Shown here piece by piece: positions 4,175 to 41,948 of a stretch of 64,000 nt of DNA. The number at the start of each line of letters is the position of its first letter. Positions within the stretch are counted from its first letter, which is position 1. This stretch comes from Chromatiales bacterium (GTDB lineage Bacteria > Pseudomonadota > Gammaproteobacteria > UBA6429 > Thiohalophilaceae): positions 1-64,000 of the forward strand of contig JALSSV010000013.1 of assembly GCA_026984045.1 (NCBI GenBank), in the 5' to 3' direction. A model generated the notes under the pieces. That model did no database searches, was not told the origin of the DNA, and saw only the letters and a program-made list of their open reading frames with translations. The position numbers were made by a program, and so were the translations under genes.

Positions 4175-5980
4175 TCAAGCCGAGCATGCCGATCCCCCGG
4201 CATGGGCGGCCTGAAAGGCTTCCGCGCCGACTTCGCCCATGTACTTGCGCAACAGGCGCGGATCGGTTTCGCGCAGATCCACCCGCACCAGGCCGTCGAT
4301 CACGTTGCTGAACTGGCGGTCGACATTGAAGCCGAGCATCTGCCCGCCCAGCTTGAGGTATTGCCGAATCAGCACCGGCACACCGCGGGCATCGTTTTCC
4401 AGGACCGCCAGCAGGGAGGCGAGTTCCTCGAGCGAGTCCACCTGCCGCAACATCTCGCTCCCCACGCCGCGCGGCCGCGTCCAGGGACGGCGCGGCCTGA
4501 TCTGGCGGGCGAGCCGTGCGTCGAAGCGGTGGCGGCGCAGGAACTCGATCAGCAACTGCTGGGAGGCGGGGCTGTAGTCGGCGCTGATGCTCACCGGCCC
4601 GAACAGCACCGCATGGCGTGGCTGGGCCGCCACGAAGCGGCCGATGCCCTTCCACAACAGTTGCAGGGGCGCGAAACCGCGCTGGTATTCGGGCCGCACG
4701 AAGGAGCGGCCCAGCTCGATGGCCGGCGGCAGGCCGTAGAGGAAGGCGCGGCTGTAGCGGAACAGTGAATAGGTATAGAGCCCGCTGCGGCCGTACACCG
4801 GCAGGATCTCCTCCACCAGCCCGAGGCGGTAACCGCCCACTACCTCACGCGTGGCCCGGTTCCAGACGAACAGGTGGTGGTAGTGCTGGTCATAGAGATC
4901 CAGATCGATCTCCCGGCCGGTGCCTTCACCGGCGGCGCGAAAGCTGATCTCGCGCAGGCGGCCGATCTCCTGCAGCAGTTCGGGGATCTGCCCGGCGCGG
5001 GCGTGCCAGACCTCGAAATCGCCGTTCTCGAGCAACCGCTGTTCCACCGGCAGATCACGCAACTCCGTCTCCAGCCGCCTCGGCTCCCGGGGCGATATGA
5101 TGGGCGCCTGCGCGGTGGGCATGCCCTGCGCCTCCGGCCCATCCTGTTCCTGCAGCAGACAGGTGCGCAGGCGCAAAAAGGCGATCTGGCGGCACTCGTC
5201 GCCCACGTCGGCCAGGCGCCGGGGCGTGATCCCCGTACCGATCCGCAGACGCAGCAGGCGACCACGCTTGTTCAGCAGCTCCCGCGGCAGCAACAGGGTC
5301 TTGATCAAGGGATGGGCCAGGGCGGCCAGATAGAAGGCCGTGCTGTTGCGGCCCTGGATGTGGATCGGCACCACCGTGGCCCCGGTGCGCCCGGCCAGCC
5401 GGGCGACGGATCGATCCCACTCCCCGTCCTCGATCCGCCGGTTGCGCAGATGAATGCCGGAGACATCCCCCGCCGGAAACACGATCAGCGCCCCGCCCCC
5501 GCGCAACCAGCGCAGACCTTCGCGCAGGGGCTTCAGATTCTGGCGCGCCGCCGCCTCGCCGCCATAGGGATTCACGCCAAGAAACAGCTCCGCAAGCTCC
5601 GGGATGCGCTTGAGCAGGCTGTTGGCCATCACCCGCACGTCGGGCCGCCGGCGCAAAAGCAGCTCGGCCAGCAGCATGCCTTCCACCGCGCCGCAGGGAT
5701 GGTTGGCCACCACCAGCAGCGGCCCGCGGGCCGGCAGCCGCTCCAGGCTGCCCTGATCGACCACGTGACGCACCTCCAGCGCCTCGAGGGCCAGGCGCAG
5801 GAACGGCGCCGGCGCATCGCAGGGCGGCAACCGCGCATAGCGCCGGGCCAGGGCGTCGATGCCGAGCAGTTTCTCGATGCCGCGCTGGAGCCAGCGCAGG
5901 AGCGGATGGCGGCGGGCGGCGGGGATCAGATCGTCGAGTCGCAGGGGCTGATCGGAACGCACGGCGGGGGATGGGGACAT
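4175..5980 (-). CDS. olsF: bifunctional acyltransferase: PlsC/OlsA-like domain plus OlsB-like domain (OlsF-like)
   Basis: 601 residues with two enzyme domains. The N-terminal half (about 80-270) is a lysophospholipid-type acyltransferase of the hemolysin/LPLAT group: NHPCGAVEG at 93-101 supplies the catalytic His with an acidic partner, and FPAGDVS at 168-174 is the second block. The C-terminal half (about 300-600) is a GNAT-like N-acyltransferase of the OlsB/hemolysin type, with LYDQHYHHLFVWNRATRE followed by VVGGYRLG. In Serratia OlsF, this order makes ornithine lipid from ornithine and two acyl-ACPs, giving a phosphate-free membrane lipid. By analogy this may make ornithine or another aminoacyl lipid; the amino acid used cannot be read from sequence. 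A GGAG ribosome site precedes the ATG. Partnership with ppk and an upstream PhoB-type box fit a phosphate-starvation role. Confidence 0.75.
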   Translation of the reverse strand: MSPSPAVRSDQPLRLDDLIPAARRHPLLRWLQRGIEKLLGIDALARRYARLPPCDAPAPFLRLALEALEVRHVVDQGSLERLPARGPLLVVANHPCGAVEGMLLAELLLRRRPDVRVMANSLLKRIPELAELFLGVNPYGGEAAARQNLKPLREGLRWLRGGGALIVFPAGDVSGIHLRNRRIEDGEWDRSVARLAGRTGATVVPIHIQGRNSTAFYLAALAHPLIKTLLLPRELLNKRGRLLRLRIGTGITPRRLADVGDECRQIAFLRLRTCLLQEQDGPEAQGMPTAQAPIISPREPRRLETELRDLPVEQRLLENGDFEVWHARAGQIPELLQEIGRLREISFRAAGEGTGREIDLDLYDQHYHHLFVWNRATREVVGGYRLGLVEEILPVYGRSGLYTYSLFRYSRAFLYGLPPAIELGRSFVRPEYQRGFAPLQLLWKGIGRFVAAQPRHAVLFGPVSISADYSPASQQLLIEFLRRHRFDARLARQIRPRRPWTRPRGVGSEMLRQVDSLEELASLLAVLENDARGVPVLIRQYLKLGGQMLGFNVDRQFSNVIDGLVRVDLRETDPRLLRKYMGEVGAEAFQAAHAGGSACSA

Positions 5981-6137: not shown

Positions 6138-6162
6138 GTCGCGGCGGGGGCGCCGCTCCTAC
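6138..6162 (-). repeat. REP element, family i
   Basis: 25-bp minus-strand family-i copy with one mismatch, ending 17 bp before the stop of the diguanylate cyclase gene. It may serve as part of that operon's transcription end. Confidence 0.7.
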
Positions 6163-6179: not shown

Positions 6180-7871
6180 TCAGTTCGACTCGACGCGGTT
6201 GCGGCCGTTTTCCTTGGCGCGGTAGAGGGCCGCGTCGGCGCGCTGGAAGAGGCCTTGGGCATCGTCGCCGGGGCGGGACTCGGTGAGGCCACAGGAGGCG
6301 GTGATGGGCACGCGCTTGCCGCGAAAATGGAACTCGGTGTCGGCGATGGCCTGGCGCAGCTTGTCGGCCACCGGCTCGGCATGGGCGGCGTCGGTCTCCG
6401 GCATCAGGATCACGAACTCCTCGCCGCCATAGCGGGCGGTGAGATCGGTCTCGCGCACCCGGTCGCGCAACAGGCGGGCGATGACGGTGAGCACCTTGTC
6501 GCCGGCGGCGTGGCCATAGGTGTCGTTGATGGACTTGAAGCGGTCCACGTCCCACACCAGCAGGGCGAAGGGCGCGCCGTAGCGCTTGAAGCGGGCCAGT
6601 TCCTCCTCCAGCCGGCGATCGTAGGCCAGGCGGTTGGGAATGCCGGTGAGGGGATCGGTCATGGCGCTGGCGCGGGCCGACTCGGCCTCCGCCTGCAGGC
6701 GTTCCAGTTCCCCCTGGGTCTGTTCCAGTTGCCGCTCCAGGCGGTCGATGACCTTGCCGGCATCCTCGTGCACGCCGTTGTGCTGTTCGAGGAAGCGGTC
6801 CATGTGATTGCGGATCAGGATCAGCCGGGACTGCACGGCGGTCTTGAGGGCGTCCAGATCCTCGGCGTCGGCCACGCTGCGCTCGATGTCGCTGACCTCG
6901 TCGCGCACCCGGCTGTCCACGTCACGCCCGGCCTGATCCGACAACGCCTGCAGACGGGCGGTCTCGCGGATGTCGCGATCCAGCTCGGCGAGGCGCTCGG
7001 TGAGCTGGCGCAGGAAGGCTTCCAGTTCCCGCTTTTCCGCCTGCACCCGGCTCTGCAGGCCGTTGAACAGCTCGGCGGTGGCCAGCAGCCCCGCCTGCAG
7101 GGCCTCGGTATCGTCACAGGGCTCGAGGCGGCGCTTGATGAGTTCCGCCTCGGCGTGCAGGGTGTCGGGCCACTGCATCTGCTCCAGCAGGCGGATCAGG
7201 GTGTCGGCCGCCAGGCGGCAGGTGGCTGCCTCTTCGTCGGCGGCGGGCGCCGCGGGCGGTTGCGCTGCGGCGGGTTCGGAAGGCGCTTCGGGGACCGGCT
7301 CGGCAGGCGGGCGGCGTCGGCGGAACAGGCCGCCGAGGAGGCCTTTCGCGCCCTGCTCTTCATTGGGGGCAGCGGGCGGTGATTCCCCCTCGTCGGTGTC
7401 CGGCGCCTTTCGGGACAGCAGCAGTTCCACCAGCTCGGCCAGATCGACGGCCACCGCCGCGGCCTCGGCCGGGGTTTGCGCCCTGGCCAGTTGGCGTTGC
7501 ACGAAACGCTGCTGCCGGGCATAGGCGTCGGGGATGGACAGCCGTTCGAAAAGGGTCTTGAGCGGCGCCGCCGGGTCCGCCTCCGCGTCGGGCGCGCGCT
7601 CGTCGAGCCGGGCGATCAGGCGCGAGACCTCTTCCACCAGCTTCTGCAGACGCAGCGGGTTGCGTTCGTTGCGCAGCGCCTGGCGCAGGGTGTCCAGCAG
7701 CCGATCCAGATCCGGATCGCGGTGATCGGCGGCCAGGGTCAGGCGGGTGGCCAGGCGCCGCAAGAGGGCCTCGGTCTCGCTCCAGGCCTTTTCCTTCTCT
7801 TCCAGTTCCTCCAGCGCAGCGTAATACTTGCGCTGCCAGTGATCCGCCTGGCGGCCGCCCTCCCGGCCCAT
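6180..7871 (-). CDS. dgcP: diguanylate cyclase with N-terminal coiled coil (DgcP-like)
   Basis: 563 residues. The C-terminal GGDEF domain has the active-site RYGGEEF and an upstream RETD that fits the RxxD inhibitory site, so it should make cyclic di-GMP and be feedback-inhibited. No membrane segment is seen. Residues 1-390 are charged and largely helical (EELEEKEKAWSETEALLRRL near residue 18), with a low-complexity Pro/Ala linker near residues 165-205. P. aeruginosa DgcP is encoded in the same place, downstream of dsbA and an endonuclease/phosphatase gene, so I use that name; the match rests on memory of gene order and the N-terminal pattern. The ATG follows the previous stop by only 3 bp, which suggests translational coupling. 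Confidence 0.8.
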   Translation of the reverse strand: MGREGGRQADHWQRKYYAALEELEEKEKAWSETEALLRRLATRLTLAADHRDPDLDRLLDTLRQALRNERNPLRLQKLVEEVSRLIARLDERAPDAEADPAAPLKTLFERLSIPDAYARQQRFVQRQLARAQTPAEAAAVAVDLAELVELLLSRKAPDTDEGESPPAAPNEEQGAKGLLGGLFRRRRPPAEPVPEAPSEPAAAQPPAAPAADEEAATCRLAADTLIRLLEQMQWPDTLHAEAELIKRRLEPCDDTEALQAGLLATAELFNGLQSRVQAEKRELEAFLRQLTERLAELDRDIRETARLQALSDQAGRDVDSRVRDEVSDIERSVADAEDLDALKTAVQSRLILIRNHMDRFLEQHNGVHEDAGKVIDRLERQLEQTQGELERLQAEAESARASAMTDPLTGIPNRLAYDRRLEEELARFKRYGAPFALLVWDVDRFKSINDTYGHAAGDKVLTVIARLLRDRVRETDLTARYGGEEFVILMPETDAAHAEPVADKLRQAIADTEFHFRGKRVPITASCGLTESRPGDDAQGLFQRADAALYRAKENGRNRVESN

Positions 7872-11245: not shown

Positions 11246-11851
11246 TCAGTGCAGGCCCTGAACGTAGGAGGCGACAGCCTCGATTTCCGCATCGGTCATG
11301 TGCCCGGCGATGTTCTGCATCATCTTGGCAGGATCGTTGGTGCGCTTGCCGGAGCGGAAGTCCTTGAGGGCCTTGATTACGTAGGGCGCGTGCTGGCCGC
11401 CCAGGCGCGGGAACTTCGCCGGCGGGTTGCCGGCCCCGGTCGGGCTGTGGCAGGCCATGCAGGCCGACACGCCGGTCTCCTTGTTGCCGCCACGGTAGAT
11501 TTTCTGCCCCAGTTCCACCAGCTTCTCATCGGCAGCGCCGATGACCGGCTTCTGGGCCGCGAAGAAAGCGCCGAGATCCGCCATGTCCTGCGGCGAGAGG
11601 CTGGCCACCTGGGCCACCATCAACGGCTCGTTCCGCCTACCGGCCTTGAAGTCGGCGAGCTGCTTGGCGATGTAGTCGGCACCCTGGCCGGCCAGCTTGG
11701 GCCAGGCCGGATTGGTGCTGACGCCATTGACGCCATGACAGGCGAAGCAGGCCTGGGCCTTGGCCTTGCCCGCTTCGGGATCGCCGGCAGCCTGGACGGA
11801 GACGGAGACGGCCAGCAGGGAGATGAAGGATATCAGCGCTGTGTACTTCAT
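11246..11851 (-). CDS. diheme cytochrome c4
   Basis: Periplasmic electron carrier, usually between the bc1 complex and terminal oxidases. With the ATG at 11851 it has 201 residues and a signal peptide ending at VQAAG. Two class I heme sites, CFACH and CMACH, head two similar halves, each ending with a Met-containing ligand region (NEPLMVAQ and AKMMQNIAG), the layout of cytochrome c4. It lies 46 bp downstream of a monoheme cytochrome and shares its promoter and terminator. The engB-cytochrome-c4-dsbA order is the same as in Pseudomonas. Confidence 0.93.
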   Translation of the reverse strand: MKYTALISFISLLAVSVSVQAAGDPEAGKAKAQACFACHGVNGVSTNPAWPKLAGQGADYIAKQLADFKAGRRNEPLMVAQVASLSPQDMADLGAFFAAQKPVIGAADEKLVELGQKIYRGGNKETGVSACMACHSPTGAGNPPAKFPRLGGQHAPYVIKALKDFRSGKRTNDPAKMMQNIAGHMTDAEIEAVASYVQGLH

Positions 11852-11897: not shown

Positions 11898-12218
11898 TTA
11901 CTGGCCGTGGGCAACCATGTAATCGACGGCGGCCTTCACGTCGGCGTCGCTGAGGTCGGTGCGACCCCCCTTGGCAGGCATGGTGCCGCTCTTGCCCTTG
12001 AAGCCGTGCAGGGCATGCTGGTACAGGGTGGCCTTGCCTTTCTTGATGCGCGGGCCCCAGGCAGCCTTGTCGCCAAACTTGGGCGCGCCGGCGGCACCGG
12101 TGCCGTGGCAGGCAAAGCAGGCCATCTTGAAGGTCTTCTCGCCGGCATCGGCCATGGCCGTGGTGGTGGCGCCCATCATCATCAGGCCAGCGGCGGCCAC
12201 AGTCAGGATCTTTTTCAT
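11898..12218 (-). CDS. monoheme cytochrome c (cytochrome c5-like)
   Basis: 106 residues with a clear signal peptide (MKKILTVAAAGLMMMGA, cut near AMADA). One heme site, CFACHGTG, and the axial Met in SGTMPAKGGR, followed by the closing helix LSDADVKAAVDYMV. This pattern fits cytochrome c5 or a related small class I carrier in the periplasm. It is the first gene of a two-cytochrome operon and is preceded by a good sigma-70 promoter at 12343-12372 and a GGAGAGACG ribosome site. Confidence 0.9.
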   Translation of the reverse strand: MKKILTVAAAGLMMMGATTTAMADAGEKTFKMACFACHGTGAAGAPKFGDKAAWGPRIKKGKATLYQHALHGFKGKSGTMPAKGGRTDLSDADVKAAVDYMVAHGQ

Positions 12219-12633
12219 CTTCGTCTCTCCTCGCGAAAGTTGACATGAGCCGCATCAGCGGCGTTTTCGTGGTCCTGTCCGATCCCTCTCTGCCGGAGGT
12301 GTCGGACGCTGGCCTCCCCTGCGACCGCACTTCGGGGCGCACCTTATAAACCAGCCCCCCAGGCAGGGTCAAGCCGGGTGCATTATACCCCAGCCTTGTC
12401 CGGGTAACACGTGCACGGGGTGCTGGCAACGACGGAAAGCCGTTACACTGTTCAGCGCCCGTTCAGGCAGGCGTCGTTGCCGCAGGCACCACGCCCGGCG
12501 CGCCGGCCTGCCCGCCACCGGTTTGTGGCGAGGCGACCGGCCGTGGCGGATCCCGGACTGATCCAGATCAGGAAAATGGCAAATCCGACCTGAACAGGCA
12601 ATGAAAGCCTTCCCCCTCGACACCGGAGCCGGC
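12219..12633. other. intergenic region between cytochrome c operon and engB
   Basis: Holds the minus-strand cytochrome promoter and the leader of engB. I see no gene, tRNA or structured RNA in the remainder. The frames that cross it do not resemble proteins. Confidence 0.6.
12343..12372 (-). promoter_or_regulatory. sigma-70 promoter of the cytochrome c5-c4 operon
   Basis: Minus strand: -35 TTGACC (12372-12367), 18-bp spacer, -10 TATAAG (12348-12343). The start codon of the first cytochrome follows after about 125 bp. Confidence 0.65.
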
Positions 12634-13266
12634 ATGCCATCCAACCCCCTCAATCACGCCCGCTTCCTGATCAGTGTGCCCGACCCCCGGCAGGCGCCGC
12701 CGGACACCGGCCGGGAAGTGGCCTTCGCCGGACGCTCCAATGCCGGCAAGTCCAGCGCCCTGAACCGGATCACCGGGCACAAGTCGCTGGCCCGCACTTC
12801 CAAGACGCCGGGGCGCACCCAGCACCTGGTGTTCTTCGAGATCGACGGCACCCGGCGGCTGGTGGATCTGCCCGGCTACGGCTATGCCCGGGTGCCCGAG
12901 CAGGTCCGTCGCCACTGGGGCGAGGCCATGGAACGCTATCTGAGCGGACGCCACTCGCTGCAGGGGCTGATCCTGCTGATGGACGTGCGCCACCCCCTCA
13001 CCGACTTCGATCGGCAGATGCTGGCCTGGTGCCGGCATGCCCGGATGCCGGTGCACGTGCTGCTGACCAAGGCCGACAAGCTCAAGCGCGGAGCGGCGAC
13101 CAATGCCCTGCTGCAGGTTGAAAAGCGCCTGGCCGACCATCCCGATGTCAGCATACAGCTCTTCTCTGCGCTCAAGGGCACGGGCGTGGACGAGGCGCGG
13201 GCCGTGATCGGCCGCTGGCTGGATCTGGCACCGCCGGCGGCTACCGGGTCATCCCCGGGCGCCTGA
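12634..13266 (+). CDS. engB: ribosome-biogenesis GTP-binding protein EngB/YihA
   Basis: Cytoplasmic GTPase of the TrmE-Era-EngA-YihA class that acts in large-subunit assembly. G motifs: GRSNAGKSS (G1), TPGRTQ (G2), DLPGYGYA (G3) and LTKADK (G4), with the SALKG G5. I prefer the internal ATG at 12634: it has a CCGGAGCC ribosome site and gives 210 residues, the length of E. coli YihA with the same spacing to G1. The ATG at 12601 would add 11 unconserved residues. It lies divergent from the cytochrome c operon, as in Pseudomonas, where polA follows; here sixA and two outer-membrane genes separate engB from polA. Confidence 0.93.
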
Positions 13267-13565: not shown

Positions 13566-14096
13566 TCATGTGGAGGCATCCGGCCAGCCGGCCTTGCGCA
13601 GTTCCCGTGGTCGCACCAGGAACCGCAGGGTTCCGATGCCGCTGCGCAGGGGCTGCCCTGCCGGGATCCGAAAGGCCGCCAGCGCGGCCGTGGTCATCAG
13701 TTTGCCCTGCGGGGTACGCTGCAGGGGCTCGGCGGCCAGCCACGCCACCAGCTCGTCCAGCCCCGGATTGTGCCCCACCAGCAGCAGGCCCGCCCCCGCC
13801 TGCCGGAGAGCCTCGTCGAGAATGCGCACCAGGGCCGGACGACCGGCCAGGTACAGATCGTCCCGGAAACGGATCCGCGCCGGCGCAAGGCCCACCGCCG
13901 CGGCCACTGCCTCGGCGGTCTGCCGGGCCCGGCAAGCGGAAGAAGAAAGCACTTCCCCGATGGTCAAGCGTTGCCCTGCCAGCCATTCTCCCATGGCCCG
14001 CGCATCCCCTTCGCCGCGCCGGTTCAGGGGCCGTTCCCGATCGGGGTGGTTCCCGCTCCAGTCCGACTTGGCATGGCGCATGATCAGCAGCTCCAT
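13566..14096 (-). CDS. sixA: phosphohistidine phosphatase SixA
   Basis: 176 residues of the histidine phosphatase superfamily. The phosphohistidine site is LLIMRHAKS (Arg7-His8) at the start; SSACRARQTAE and LLVGHNPGLDEL carry the other conserved Arg and His. SixA-type enzymes remove phosphate from His residues of Hpt domains or of the nitrogen phosphotransferase system. No partner is adjacent, though an Hpt domain protein is encoded at 31375-32985. It stands alone on the minus strand with its own terminators. Confidence 0.88.
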   Translation of the reverse strand: MELLIMRHAKSDWSGNHPDRERPLNRRGEGDARAMGEWLAGQRLTIGEVLSSSACRARQTAEAVAAAVGLAPARIRFRDDLYLAGRPALVRILDEALRQAGAGLLLVGHNPGLDELVAWLAAEPLQRTPQGKLMTTAALAAFRIPAGQPLRSGIGTLRFLVRPRELRKAGWPDAST

Positions 14097-14217: not shown

Positions 14218-15513
14218 ATGCACACCATCCAGACTCGCATCCTGCGTCACGGCCTGCTCGGCGGCCTGTGCCTCATGCTGTTCCTGAGCCTGTGGCCCAA
14301 CGACAGCCAGGCCATCCCCGCCTTCGCCCGCAAATACGATCTGAGCTGCGCGGCCTGCCATGCGGCCTTCCCCAAACTCAACGAATTCGGCCAGCAGTTC
14401 ATGGACAGCAACTATCGCCTGCCCAACTGGAAAGACGGCACCCTCTCCGGGGGAGACGACCTGCTGGCCCTGCCCAAAACGGTGCCCCTGGCCCTGCGCG
14501 CCCAGGCCTTCGTGCAGAGCCGCGACGCCAGGACCATCGACGTGAATACCGGCGAAGAGGCCAAGGCCAACCCGGACATCCAGGCCCCCTATCTCATCAA
14601 GCTGCTCTCCAGCGCGCCGCTGTCGGATCACGTCAGTTACTACTTCTACGGCATCCTGGCCGAGAAGGGCGGCAACGGCTCGGTGATCGTCGAGGATGCC
14701 TGGTTCTCCCACGACGATCTGTTCGACACCGGCATCGGCCTGATGCTCGGCCAGTACCAGATTTCCGATCTGATGTTCCCGCGCGAGACCCGCCTCACCT
14801 TCCAGGACTTCATGGTCTACCGCATGGCGGGGATCACTTACGAACGCGGCGTGCAGTTCGGACGGGACTTCGGCCCCGTGTCGGTGGAACTGGGCTGGGC
14901 GAACGGCAACGGCATCGAGGACAATCTCGGCATCAACAGCCCCGGCTACAAGCGCCCCGACCACCTGTTCGACAACGACAGCGGCAAGGCCTTCTACGGC
15001 CGCGTGGGTTTCGACCTGGCGGTGATGAACGTGGGCCTGTTCGGCTACAGCGGCAGCCAGAAGAACGCCATCAGCGGCTCGACCAACCGCGGCCCCCGCG
15101 ACACGGCCAAGATCGTCTATGGCGTGGATGCCTCGGGCAAGATCGGCGCCAAGACCTGGTGGTTCGCCCAGGGGCTCTGGAACCGCTGGGAGGATTTCAT
15201 CAACGTGGGCACGAGCTATGAATGGTTCGGCGCCTTCGTCGGCGTGGACTACGTGCACAGCCCCCGCTGGACCTTCTCGGCCCTCTACAACTTCGCCGAT
15301 GCCCAGGACCTGAACAACACCGACACCGTGTTCGAGGGCATCGACATCAACACCCTGACCCTGACCGCCAGCTACTACTTCATGCGCAACGTCAAGGGCA
15401 TCCTCGAGGTCAACGGCGACTTCCAGGCGACCGAAAGCCAGACCGGCAACCTGTATACCGGCCACCTGACCAAGGAAAACTACGCCCTGGTGGGTTTCGA
15501 CGCGGCGTTCTGA
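14218..15513 (+). CDS. outer-membrane cytochrome-porin fusion (Cyc2-like architecture)
   Basis: 431 residues with a signal peptide ending at about residue 32 (SQA). Immediately after it comes AIPAFARKYDLSCAACH with one heme site at 44-48, then FPKLNEFGQQF. About 350 residues of alternating amphipathic strands follow and end in a terminal Phe (FDAAF), as in outer-membrane barrels. The segment from AIPAFAR through FGQQF is close to the Cyc2 signature (A-x-P-x-FAR, CxxCH, then P-x-L-x-x-FG), so a heme plug joined to a porin is likely. Cyc2 oxidises Fe(II) at the surface, but many FAR/CxxCH barrel proteins are uncharacterised, so the substrate is open. A GGGAGAA ribosome site precedes the ATG. 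It stands alone between sixA and a REPIN. Confidence 0.75.
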   Translation: MHTIQTRILRHGLLGGLCLMLFLSLWPNDSQAIPAFARKYDLSCAACHAAFPKLNEFGQQFMDSNYRLPNWKDGTLSGGDDLLALPKTVPLALRAQAFVQSRDARTIDVNTGEEAKANPDIQAPYLIKLLSSAPLSDHVSYYFYGILAEKGGNGSVIVEDAWFSHDDLFDTGIGLMLGQYQISDLMFPRETRLTFQDFMVYRMAGITYERGVQFGRDFGPVSVELGWANGNGIEDNLGINSPGYKRPDHLFDNDSGKAFYGRVGFDLAVMNVGLFGYSGSQKNAISGSTNRGPRDTAKIVYGVDASGKIGAKTWWFAQGLWNRWEDFINVGTSYEWFGAFVGVDYVHSPRWTFSALYNFADAQDLNNTDTVFEGIDINTLTLTASYYFMRNVKGILEVNGDFQATESQTGNLYTGHLTKENYALVGFDAAF

Positions 15514-15556: not shown

Positions 15557-15707
15557 GTAGGAGCGGCGCCCTCGCCGCGACCATGCAGGGACGAGTGGCG
15601 AGAGCCAAGTGCCGAGGAAAAGCACTGGCTTCCGATTTCGGTTCACCTCGTCACTCGGCCCTCGTCCCTTGGCCCTGTTCTTGTCGCGGCGAGGGCGCCG
15701 CTCCTAC
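15557..15707. repeat. REPIN-like element: two inverted family-i REPs
   Basis: A plus-strand family-i REP (15557-15581) and a minus-strand copy (15683-15707) flank about 100 bp that is itself partly inverted (GGGACGAGTGGCGAG near 15589 against CTCGTCACTCGGCCCTCGTC near 15650). The same CATGCAGGGACGAGTG sequence follows the REP at 41583, so the spacer is part of the element. It fills the gap between two convergent outer-membrane genes. Confidence 0.8.
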
Positions 15708-15774: not shown

Positions 15775-16596
15775 TCAGAACCAGGTGGTGAGATAAAGCA
15801 GGCCGCCGGCGATGCGATTGCGGAAGGTGAAGCGGTAATCGTCGTTCTCGCGGCCGATGGTGAGGTTGTTGGAGCCAATACCGACGCCGAGGCCCACGTT
15901 CTTCCAGGCCCGGTATTCCAGGCGCAGCGTCACGTCGGTGTAGTTGCCGGAATACTCGCCAAAACGCATGGCGAACCACTGGTTGTCGAGGCTCCAGGAC
16001 CAGCGGGGACTGATCCGGTAGGCAAGGGTGAAGGCGACCACGGGGAGGGGAACGGTGGTTTCCACGCCACGGGCACTGCGACCGGCTGGCACCGTGGTGG
16101 ATGCCTCCAGGTTCATCTCGAAACGGGTCACGTGCACCCCGGCGCCCACCGCCAGCTCGACCTTGTCCGAATGATAGAAGGACCAGCGATAACCGAGCTT
16201 GAAGATGTCGTACTTGAGGCGGCTGGTGACCTGGGCGCCGACGGGGATGGTGATGCTGTTGCCGTTGTCGTCCTCCCAGGTGAATTCTTCCTCTATCGAC
16301 TTGTTGCCGTCGCTGCGGATGCTGTACCAGGAGAAGGTCAGGGAATGGGGGCCCTTGAGGCGGCGCAGGCCGTCGAAGCGTAGCACCGTGTTCTCGAAAT
16401 CCATGCCCAGGGTGCGGGTGGGGCTGATGGCGATCCCCGCGCCGGCCTGGCTGTCCTCGAGCGAGAGGGTCGAATCGAAATCGGCCAGCAGGTAACCGCC
16501 CAGGGCCAGCGACCAGCGCTTGTCACCCGTGTCCATCGCCTGCGCCTGACCGATCAGGAACAGGCCTGCCAGCAGCCAGGCCGTGCGGGATTTCAT
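15775..16596 (-). CDS. predicted outer-membrane beta-barrel protein, unknown function
   Basis: 273 residues from the ATG at 16596, which has a GGGGAGGAACC ribosome site; the longer frame to 16698 is not needed. A signal peptide ends at AQAMD. The rest is a run of alternating polar/hydrophobic strands rich in Gly, Tyr and Trp (SLALGGYLLADFDSTLSL, YKLGYRWSF-like FKLGYRWSFYHSDKVELA, GLGVGIGSNNL) and it ends in WF, a typical barrel terminus. I cannot assign a family. It resembles small 8-10-strand barrels of the OmpW/OmpA-like kind. Convergent with the cytochrome-porin gene across a REPIN. Confidence 0.7.
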   Translation of the reverse strand: MKSRTAWLLAGLFLIGQAQAMDTGDKRWSLALGGYLLADFDSTLSLEDSQAGAGIAISPTRTLGMDFENTVLRFDGLRRLKGPHSLTFSWYSIRSDGNKSIEEEFTWEDDNGNSITIPVGAQVTSRLKYDIFKLGYRWSFYHSDKVELAVGAGVHVTRFEMNLEASTTVPAGRSARGVETTVPLPVVAFTLAYRISPRWSWSLDNQWFAMRFGEYSGNYTDVTLRLEYRAWKNVGLGVGIGSNNLTIGRENDDYRFTFRNRIAGGLLYLTTWF

Positions 16597-16705
16597 GGTG
16601 GTTCCTCCCCGTGTTTGTTTGAAGCATGGCACAAAGGAGGGGCTTCGTCTTGCGGATTGGTCGCGGCTCGTGCCGCGATTCAACCGACCAAGGCGCAATG
16701 CGGTG

Positions 16706-41923: not shown

Positions 41924-41948
41924 GTCGCGGCGAGGGCGCCGCTCCTAC
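41924..41948 (-). repeat. REP element, family i
   Basis: Perfect 25-bp minus-strand copy preceded by CTCGGCCCTGTTCCT, which matches the flank of the copy at 15683-15707 (CTTGGCCCTGTTCTT). Confidence 0.8.

Follow-up and report, generated by a model that had tools for sequence, protein, structure and literature searches.

A Cyc2-like cytochrome–porin gene in a Chromatiales genome and the clade to which it belongs

Cyc2 proteins and the gene at 14218–15513

Cyc2 proteins fall into three clusters, of which one member each has been tested, and cluster 3 has been called the least certain (PMC8406198; PMC7029218). Keffer et al. 2021 (PMC8406198) define a Cyc2-like protein by the motif AXPXFAR[Q/K][T/Y] 5 residues upstream of CXXCH, PXL 4 residues downstream, a length of at least 365 residues and a fused porin. 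Cluster-III homologues have been described together with RuBisCO in two MAGs from dives 96 and 100, one of Thiohalomonadales and one of SZUA-229, where caution about their function is expressed (PMC9769843), and Ca. Siderophilus nitratireducens, a relative of Thiohalophilus, has been proposed as a nitrate-dependent iron oxidiser on the basis of its cluster-3 cyc2 (PMC10993476). Genes of the cyc2 type are in use as markers of iron oxidation.

Within the 64,000-nucleotide stretch of DNA analysed here (the window), positions 14218–15513 of the plus strand hold an intact 431-codon gene for a 431-aa fused monoheme cytochrome–porin, which lies far beyond chance because full-length orthologues at 53–80% identity occur in many genera. 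A predicted signal peptide (residues 1–31, 14218–14310, plus strand) forms a helix over residues 2–24 in the structural model and is only 17% identical on average between pairs of clade members. It is followed by the heme domain, a presumed plug (residues 32–75, 14311–14442, plus strand), with a mean pairwise identity of 66% in 80 orthologues. The CAACH heme c binding motif lies within this domain (residues 44–48, 14347–14361, plus strand), and its C44, C47 and H48 are invariant in 80/80. Residues 32–54 read AIPAFARKYDLSCAACHAAFPKL and continue with NEFG, and the order of elements after the signal peptide (AIPAFARKY, DLS, CAACH, AAF, PKL) has the published Cyc2 spacing.

By the published sequence rule the protein is Cyc2-like. 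The FAR motif is found as AIPAFARKY-DLS-CAACH, the single CXXCH and the PXL as CAACH-AAF-PKL, the length is 431 aa and a fused porin of ∼16 strands is predicted by AlphaFold2 with Z scores of ∼24 to known porins. The sequence-only reading had seen a Cyc2-like signature behind the signal peptide, and motif, spacing, length and barrel all bear it out. The likeness to Cyc2 Cluster 1 of Mariprofundus and Gallionella extends to the succession AxPxFAR[QK][TY], 3 residues, CxxCH, 3 residues, PxL and to the single heme, 16-strand porin and signal peptide (PMC8406198). All 80 aligned orthologues have exactly one CxxCH, at least 365 residues and an aromatic last residue; a strict fit to the FAR motif 5 residues upstream of CXXCH is seen in 49 of the 80 clade members, while each of the remaining 31 departs from it at one position at least. 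Apart from the CxxCH histidine, no Met, His or Lys of the heme domain is invariant among the 80. A Pfam and NCBIfam scan of the protein returned 0 families at E ≤ 1, and no Pfam family is common to most of the 80 members. A PDB search returned nothing for the protein sequence and only chance-level matches for its profile, and a promoter and terminator scan found neither.

Place among Cyc2 clusters and among genomes

A quick tree was computed from 73 rows picked from 153 sequences plus the window protein, and a careful tree from 34 of these. In the former the 41 orthologues group together (SH-aLRT 98) and are set off by a branch of 1.5 changes per site; in the latter the 14 orthologues likewise form a single clade (support 100/99). 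The FARQTGAACL and FARKYG groups used for comparison belong to a family, f207, which we take to be Zetaproteobacteria, and the labels Cluster-1-like (zeta1) and cluster 3 (zeta3) of the compared rows are presumed from that family. A tree forcing the clade together with the Cluster-1-like FARQTGAACL group and its kin was rejected (p-AU 0.016). Profile comparison with the FARQTGAACL group covers 133 columns, confined to the N-terminal heme region, and that with the FARQTGMAC group 124 columns. As far as tested on sequence, then, the protein falls outside the Cluster-1-like group, the one for which Fe oxidase activity is proven: the clade stands separate, and its homology to Cluster 1 is detected over the N-terminal ∼133 columns only. 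A Cyc2 tree had been proposed with the sequence-only reading, and the tree computed here sets the protein apart from the Cluster-1 type.

In the quick tree the FARKYG proteins of f207 come closest to the clade (SH-aLRT 95, with long branches and a cluster label that is our own assignment). Since long branches meet there, we do not rely on this joining, which may be a long-branch artefact. The profile comparison with the FARKYG group runs over 398 columns, the full length, with an E of 2.1e-19. The FARKYGMSCNSCHTMFPKLSKMG proteins of f207, probably cluster 3 of Zetaproteobacteria, thus resemble the clade in a full-length profile match, but are only ∼24% identical to it, lie across long separating branches and lack the NYRLPNWK stretch.

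The published cluster 3/III homologues (PMC9769843, PMC10993476) resemble the clade in taxa, motif and RuBisCO background. One orthologue (L069, isolate Dive96_bin3.258) is 72% identical to the window protein, belongs with the source genome in one family and carries the Dive96 label of the first of these studies. For these reasons the clade is probably already in print as cluster III, and its identity with the published homologues is likely. The portions of the literature available to our search held no separate account of the clade, of its conserved barrel or of its downstream partner. We regard the protein as a good, typical representative of an established kind, a few of whose features merit testing.

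One copy of the gene was found in the source genome. Among near genomes, 22 of 58 (the source included) gave matches: nine besides the source have orthologues at 61–80% identity, and the remaining matches are weak, mostly N-terminal, and to other cytochrome–porins. In a draw across the class, 14/369 genomes (the source included) had an orthologue with E ≤ 1e-30, and a draw across the phylum gave matches in 70/398 genomes, most of them in f207, nearly all of whose genomes, presumably zetaproteobacterial, bear a porin. A named collection contributed 98 relatives, of which 80 were analysed. Its holders include Thiohalophilus thiocyanatoxydans, Thiohalobacter thiocyanaticus, Thiobacillus spp., four Microbulbifer and two cultured Wenzhouxiangella. 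Loci L078, L100, L123, L126, L127 and L138 were left out of the alignment (A3) as truncated, split, duplicate or odd at the end, and L012, L013, L017, L019, L021, L024, L048, L056, L058, L100, L123 and L163–L165 had no usable ORF. Genome G019, of Thiohalophilus genus group g2, has two copies of porin plus c4 (contigs C1, 4365–7767, and C3, 60132–63536), and a locus labelled Deltaproteobacteria (L139) holds a clade member (4671–5948) with a second cytochrome–porin, of the FARQTG...FQHFP type, directly behind it (6188–7444).

The source genome has a dsrA above the family cut-off and two RuBisCO large-chain genes, so the host is probably a sulfur-oxidising autotroph. Within the class draw, RuBisCO is present in 14/14 porin-bearing genomes (the source included) versus 37/66 without the porin (Fisher p 0.0014, kinship ignored), the 66 having been taken at regular steps from an even class draw. 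As a linked trait dsrA was rejected, being found in 7/14 porin-bearing and 23/66 porin-free genomes (p 0.37). The picture is more mixed among 40 named porin-bearing genomes, a non-random choice that gave precedence to cultured and heterotroph-sounding names: RuBisCO is found in 18 and absent in 22, absence being weak evidence in several of the 40 because they are MAGs. It is absent in 4/4 Microbulbifer and 3/3 Wenzhouxiangella tested, and obligately aerobic chemoheterotrophy is ascribed to the Wenzhouxiangellaceae (PMC13055281). The sequence-only reading had named heterotroph FAR/CxxCH proteins as the company that would count against it. Heterotroph-like genomes, of bacteria for which growth on iron is not known, do occur in the clade, away from Cluster 1, but many autotrophs carry the gene too, which leaves that objection half sustained. 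Thiohalophilus, Thiohalobacter, Microbulbifer and Wenzhouxiangella offer cultured hosts in which donors could be tested.

Predicted barrel and its conservation

An AlphaFold2 model built from the 80 orthologues, with a mean pLDDT of 79.3 over its whole length, places 16 long strands within residues 92–430, the porin barrel spanning residues 92–431 (14491–15510, plus strand). VIA-align gives Z scores of 23.5–24.5 to OmpC, OmpF, Omp32, OprP (24.2) and OprO (23.9) over ∼300 residues at 2.9–3.7 Å. The matches listed by Foldseek and VIA for the whole protein are outer-membrane barrels only, with no cytochrome fold among them. General 16-stranded porins such as OmpF, OmpC, Omp32, OprP and OprO thus share the barrel fold, but they lack the heme domain and are 8–14% identical to the protein. 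OprP and OprO are the porins that Keffer et al. matched to PV-1 Cyc2 (PMC8406198). The barrel had earlier been said to end in Phe, and the terminus of the predicted 16-stranded porin is indeed ...GFDAAF. The modelling of barrel and heme plug proposed at that time succeeds for the barrel and leaves the plug at low confidence: residues 28–54, around the heme motif, have pLDDT values mostly <50 in a model that contains no heme.

Loop L3 lines the pore in general porins. If strands are counted from a periplasmic N-terminus in the model, residues 181–208 (QISDLMFPRETRLTFQDFMVYRMAGITY; 14758–14841, plus strand) would be L3, the presumed pore constriction. Two features of the conservation pattern are new here. 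(i) In this clade barrel and heme domain are equally conserved (61 versus 63% mean pairwise identity, 41 sequences), which distinguishes the clade from Cyc2 Cluster 1; the values for barrel and heme domain are 35 and 73% in the Cluster-1-like FARQTGAACL group (8 sequences) and 62 and 85% in the FARKYG group (10 sequences). (ii) The most conserved stretches of at least 10 residues are strand b2 (83%), L3 (82%) and strand b3 (80%), all above the heme domain (66%; mean pairwise identity, 80 orthologues). The two-residue turn T7 reaches 95% and is too short to weigh. The pattern suggests a fixed pore interior, which may in turn reflect a fixed solute. A sizeable clade satisfies the published rule, yet it is found in heterotroph genera and its barrel is conserved in a different manner, which makes it unsafe to read iron oxidation from the motif alone.

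Proposed function and gene neighbourhood

The best explanation, to which we give a probability of roughly 0.5, is that the protein is a Cyc2-like heme porin of the outer membrane, serving as an auxiliary means of taking up electrons from a putative donor. It would be a 16-stranded porin whose short N-terminal domain, at the periplasmic mouth, binds one heme c covalently. A small dissolved reductant would enter from outside, pass the L3-lined constriction and give an electron to the heme, from which soluble periplasmic c-type cytochromes would carry it to a terminal oxidase. In the source genome, with reverse-Dsr and RuBisCO, this would supplement sulfur oxidation as an auxiliary route of electron uptake. 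Among single donors, dissolved Fe2+ is the likeliest candidate. A Cyc2-like working is favored because the protein fits the motif rule and has a predicted 16-strand barrel with Z ∼24 to OprP and OprO. The FARKY-type profile match, the RuBisCO distribution in the class draw and the source genome's own dsrA and two RuBisCOs also speak for it, as do the cluster-III and cluster-3 genes of the Thiohalomonadales and Ca. Siderophilus (PMC9769843; PMC10993476). Against it stand the 22 of 40 named holders lacking RuBisCO, cultured heterotroph genera among them, the lack of dsrA enrichment, the low pLDDT of the heme domain and the want, in that domain, of an invariant Met, His or Lys that might serve as sixth heme ligand.

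The conservation pattern and the mixed lifestyle of the holders also accord with a redox porin whose donor is not iron but a reduced sulfur species, some other metal ion or a small organic molecule. L3 would act as its selectivity filter, and autotrophs and heterotrophs alike would use it. The evenness of barrel and heme domain, unlike that of the two probably zetaproteobacterial groups, and the prominence of b2, L3 and b3 are what one might expect of such a protein. Conservation alone is silent on what passes, however, dsrA is not enriched, and beside the porin no gene for any particular donor recurs; we consider this reading possible but on balance unlikely.

More doubtful is a true lithotrophic Fe(II) oxidase supporting growth on dissolved Fe2+, as in Mariprofundus with its Cluster 1 Cyc2. 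Motif and architecture are those of Cyc2, the source genome has RuBisCO, and cluster-3 genes have led to iron oxidation being proposed for related lineages. However, the clade is kept apart from the Cluster-1 type by the rejected joint tree and the short N-terminal alignment, and it occurs in Microbulbifer and Wenzhouxiangella genomes that lack RuBisCO, the latter of a family of chemoheterotrophs (PMC13055281). Nor does the gene have neighbors of the cyc1-rus-cox type: no cyc1, cup, cox or rus partner lies beside it, where sixA, engB, an unrelated outer-membrane protein gene and polA are found. Outward electron flow, either reducing external Fe(III) or another acceptor, for instance in iron acquisition, or with the heme gating the pore, would suit the heterotroph holders and a sequence from which direction is unreadable, but is improbable given that tested relatives of this architecture take electrons inward (Keffer et al., PMC8406198) and that the recurring neighbor families, most of them unannotated, showed no recognisable gene for a siderophore or a ferric reductase.

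For auxiliary electron uptake by a Cyc2-like porin, plausible periplasmic acceptors are at hand. A c4-like diheme cytochrome (11246–11845, minus strand) and a c5-like monoheme cytochrome (11898–12218, minus strand), both general periplasmic carriers of an engB-c5-c4 block, are encoded 2.0–2.4 kb from the porin gene. They are not in an operon with it, because they lie on the opposite strand and because an engB/YihA-type GTPase gene (12601–13266, plus strand) and the divergent gene of a SixA-like phosphohistidine phosphatase (13566–14096, minus strand) stand between. At c4 loci of related genomes, engB adjoins c4 in 29/30 and c5 is present in 26/30, whether or not the porin is nearby. Conversely, c4 falls within the locus sequence in 2/80 named porin loci (L097 and L126) besides the window, some of the loci being short. 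Since the engB-c5-c4 block is usually not beside the porin, its closeness here is mostly an accident of place, and on these counts the two cytochromes were rejected as dedicated partners. Counter to this, genome G019 has second copies of porin, engB, c5 and c4 together on a 40.7-kb contig, and G012 and G023 have porin and c4 on the same contig, 10–12 kb apart. The earlier suggestion that c4 and c5 could accept the electrons is therefore weakened as to linkage, though the genes are real and as near as was said; as general carriers they may still do so.

The sole recurring partner noted, and a further new observation, is a PEGA/SHOCT-like exported protein. Of the 76 loci with at least 600 bases of downstream sequence, 16 encode it directly behind the porin and in the same orientation (for example L101, 11232–11777; L102, 11271–11822). 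It has ∼170–200 residues, and in some loci its gene overlaps the end of the porin gene. The PEGA match has an E of 4e-5 in L101 and is weaker in the three others scanned, and the SHOCT match is weak; an initial assignment to YceI was dropped, since sequences and Pfam show PEGA and weakly SHOCT. The source genome gave no such protein (best E 0.18). One could imagine the clade as a functionally distinct FAR/CxxCH branch, common to sulfur-oxidising autotrophs and marine heterotrophs, whose barrel and L3 are fixed for one non-iron donor and of which one sub-branch is served by this protein as a periplasmic partner; we would entertain so specific a proposal only as a speculative one.

Cytochrome b561-like genes, named by eye, occur on the same strand in five loci. 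By eye also, the porin in L072 and L104 lies beside lookalikes of a diheme cytochrome, a PepSY-like protein, a cytochrome b561 and a two-component system. Downstream of the porin gene in the window is a convergent gene (15775–16602, minus strand) for a predicted small outer-membrane β-barrel protein with weak family matches only. A 25-base GC-rich sequence, GTAGGAGCGGCGCCCTCGCCGCGAC, has 6 copies in the window with at most 1 mismatch, where none is expected by chance (15557–15581, plus strand; 15683–15707, minus strand; 1831–1855; 1998–2022; 6138–6162; 41924–41948). Immediately behind the porin gene, two of these copies stand in inverted orientation as a REP-like doublet.
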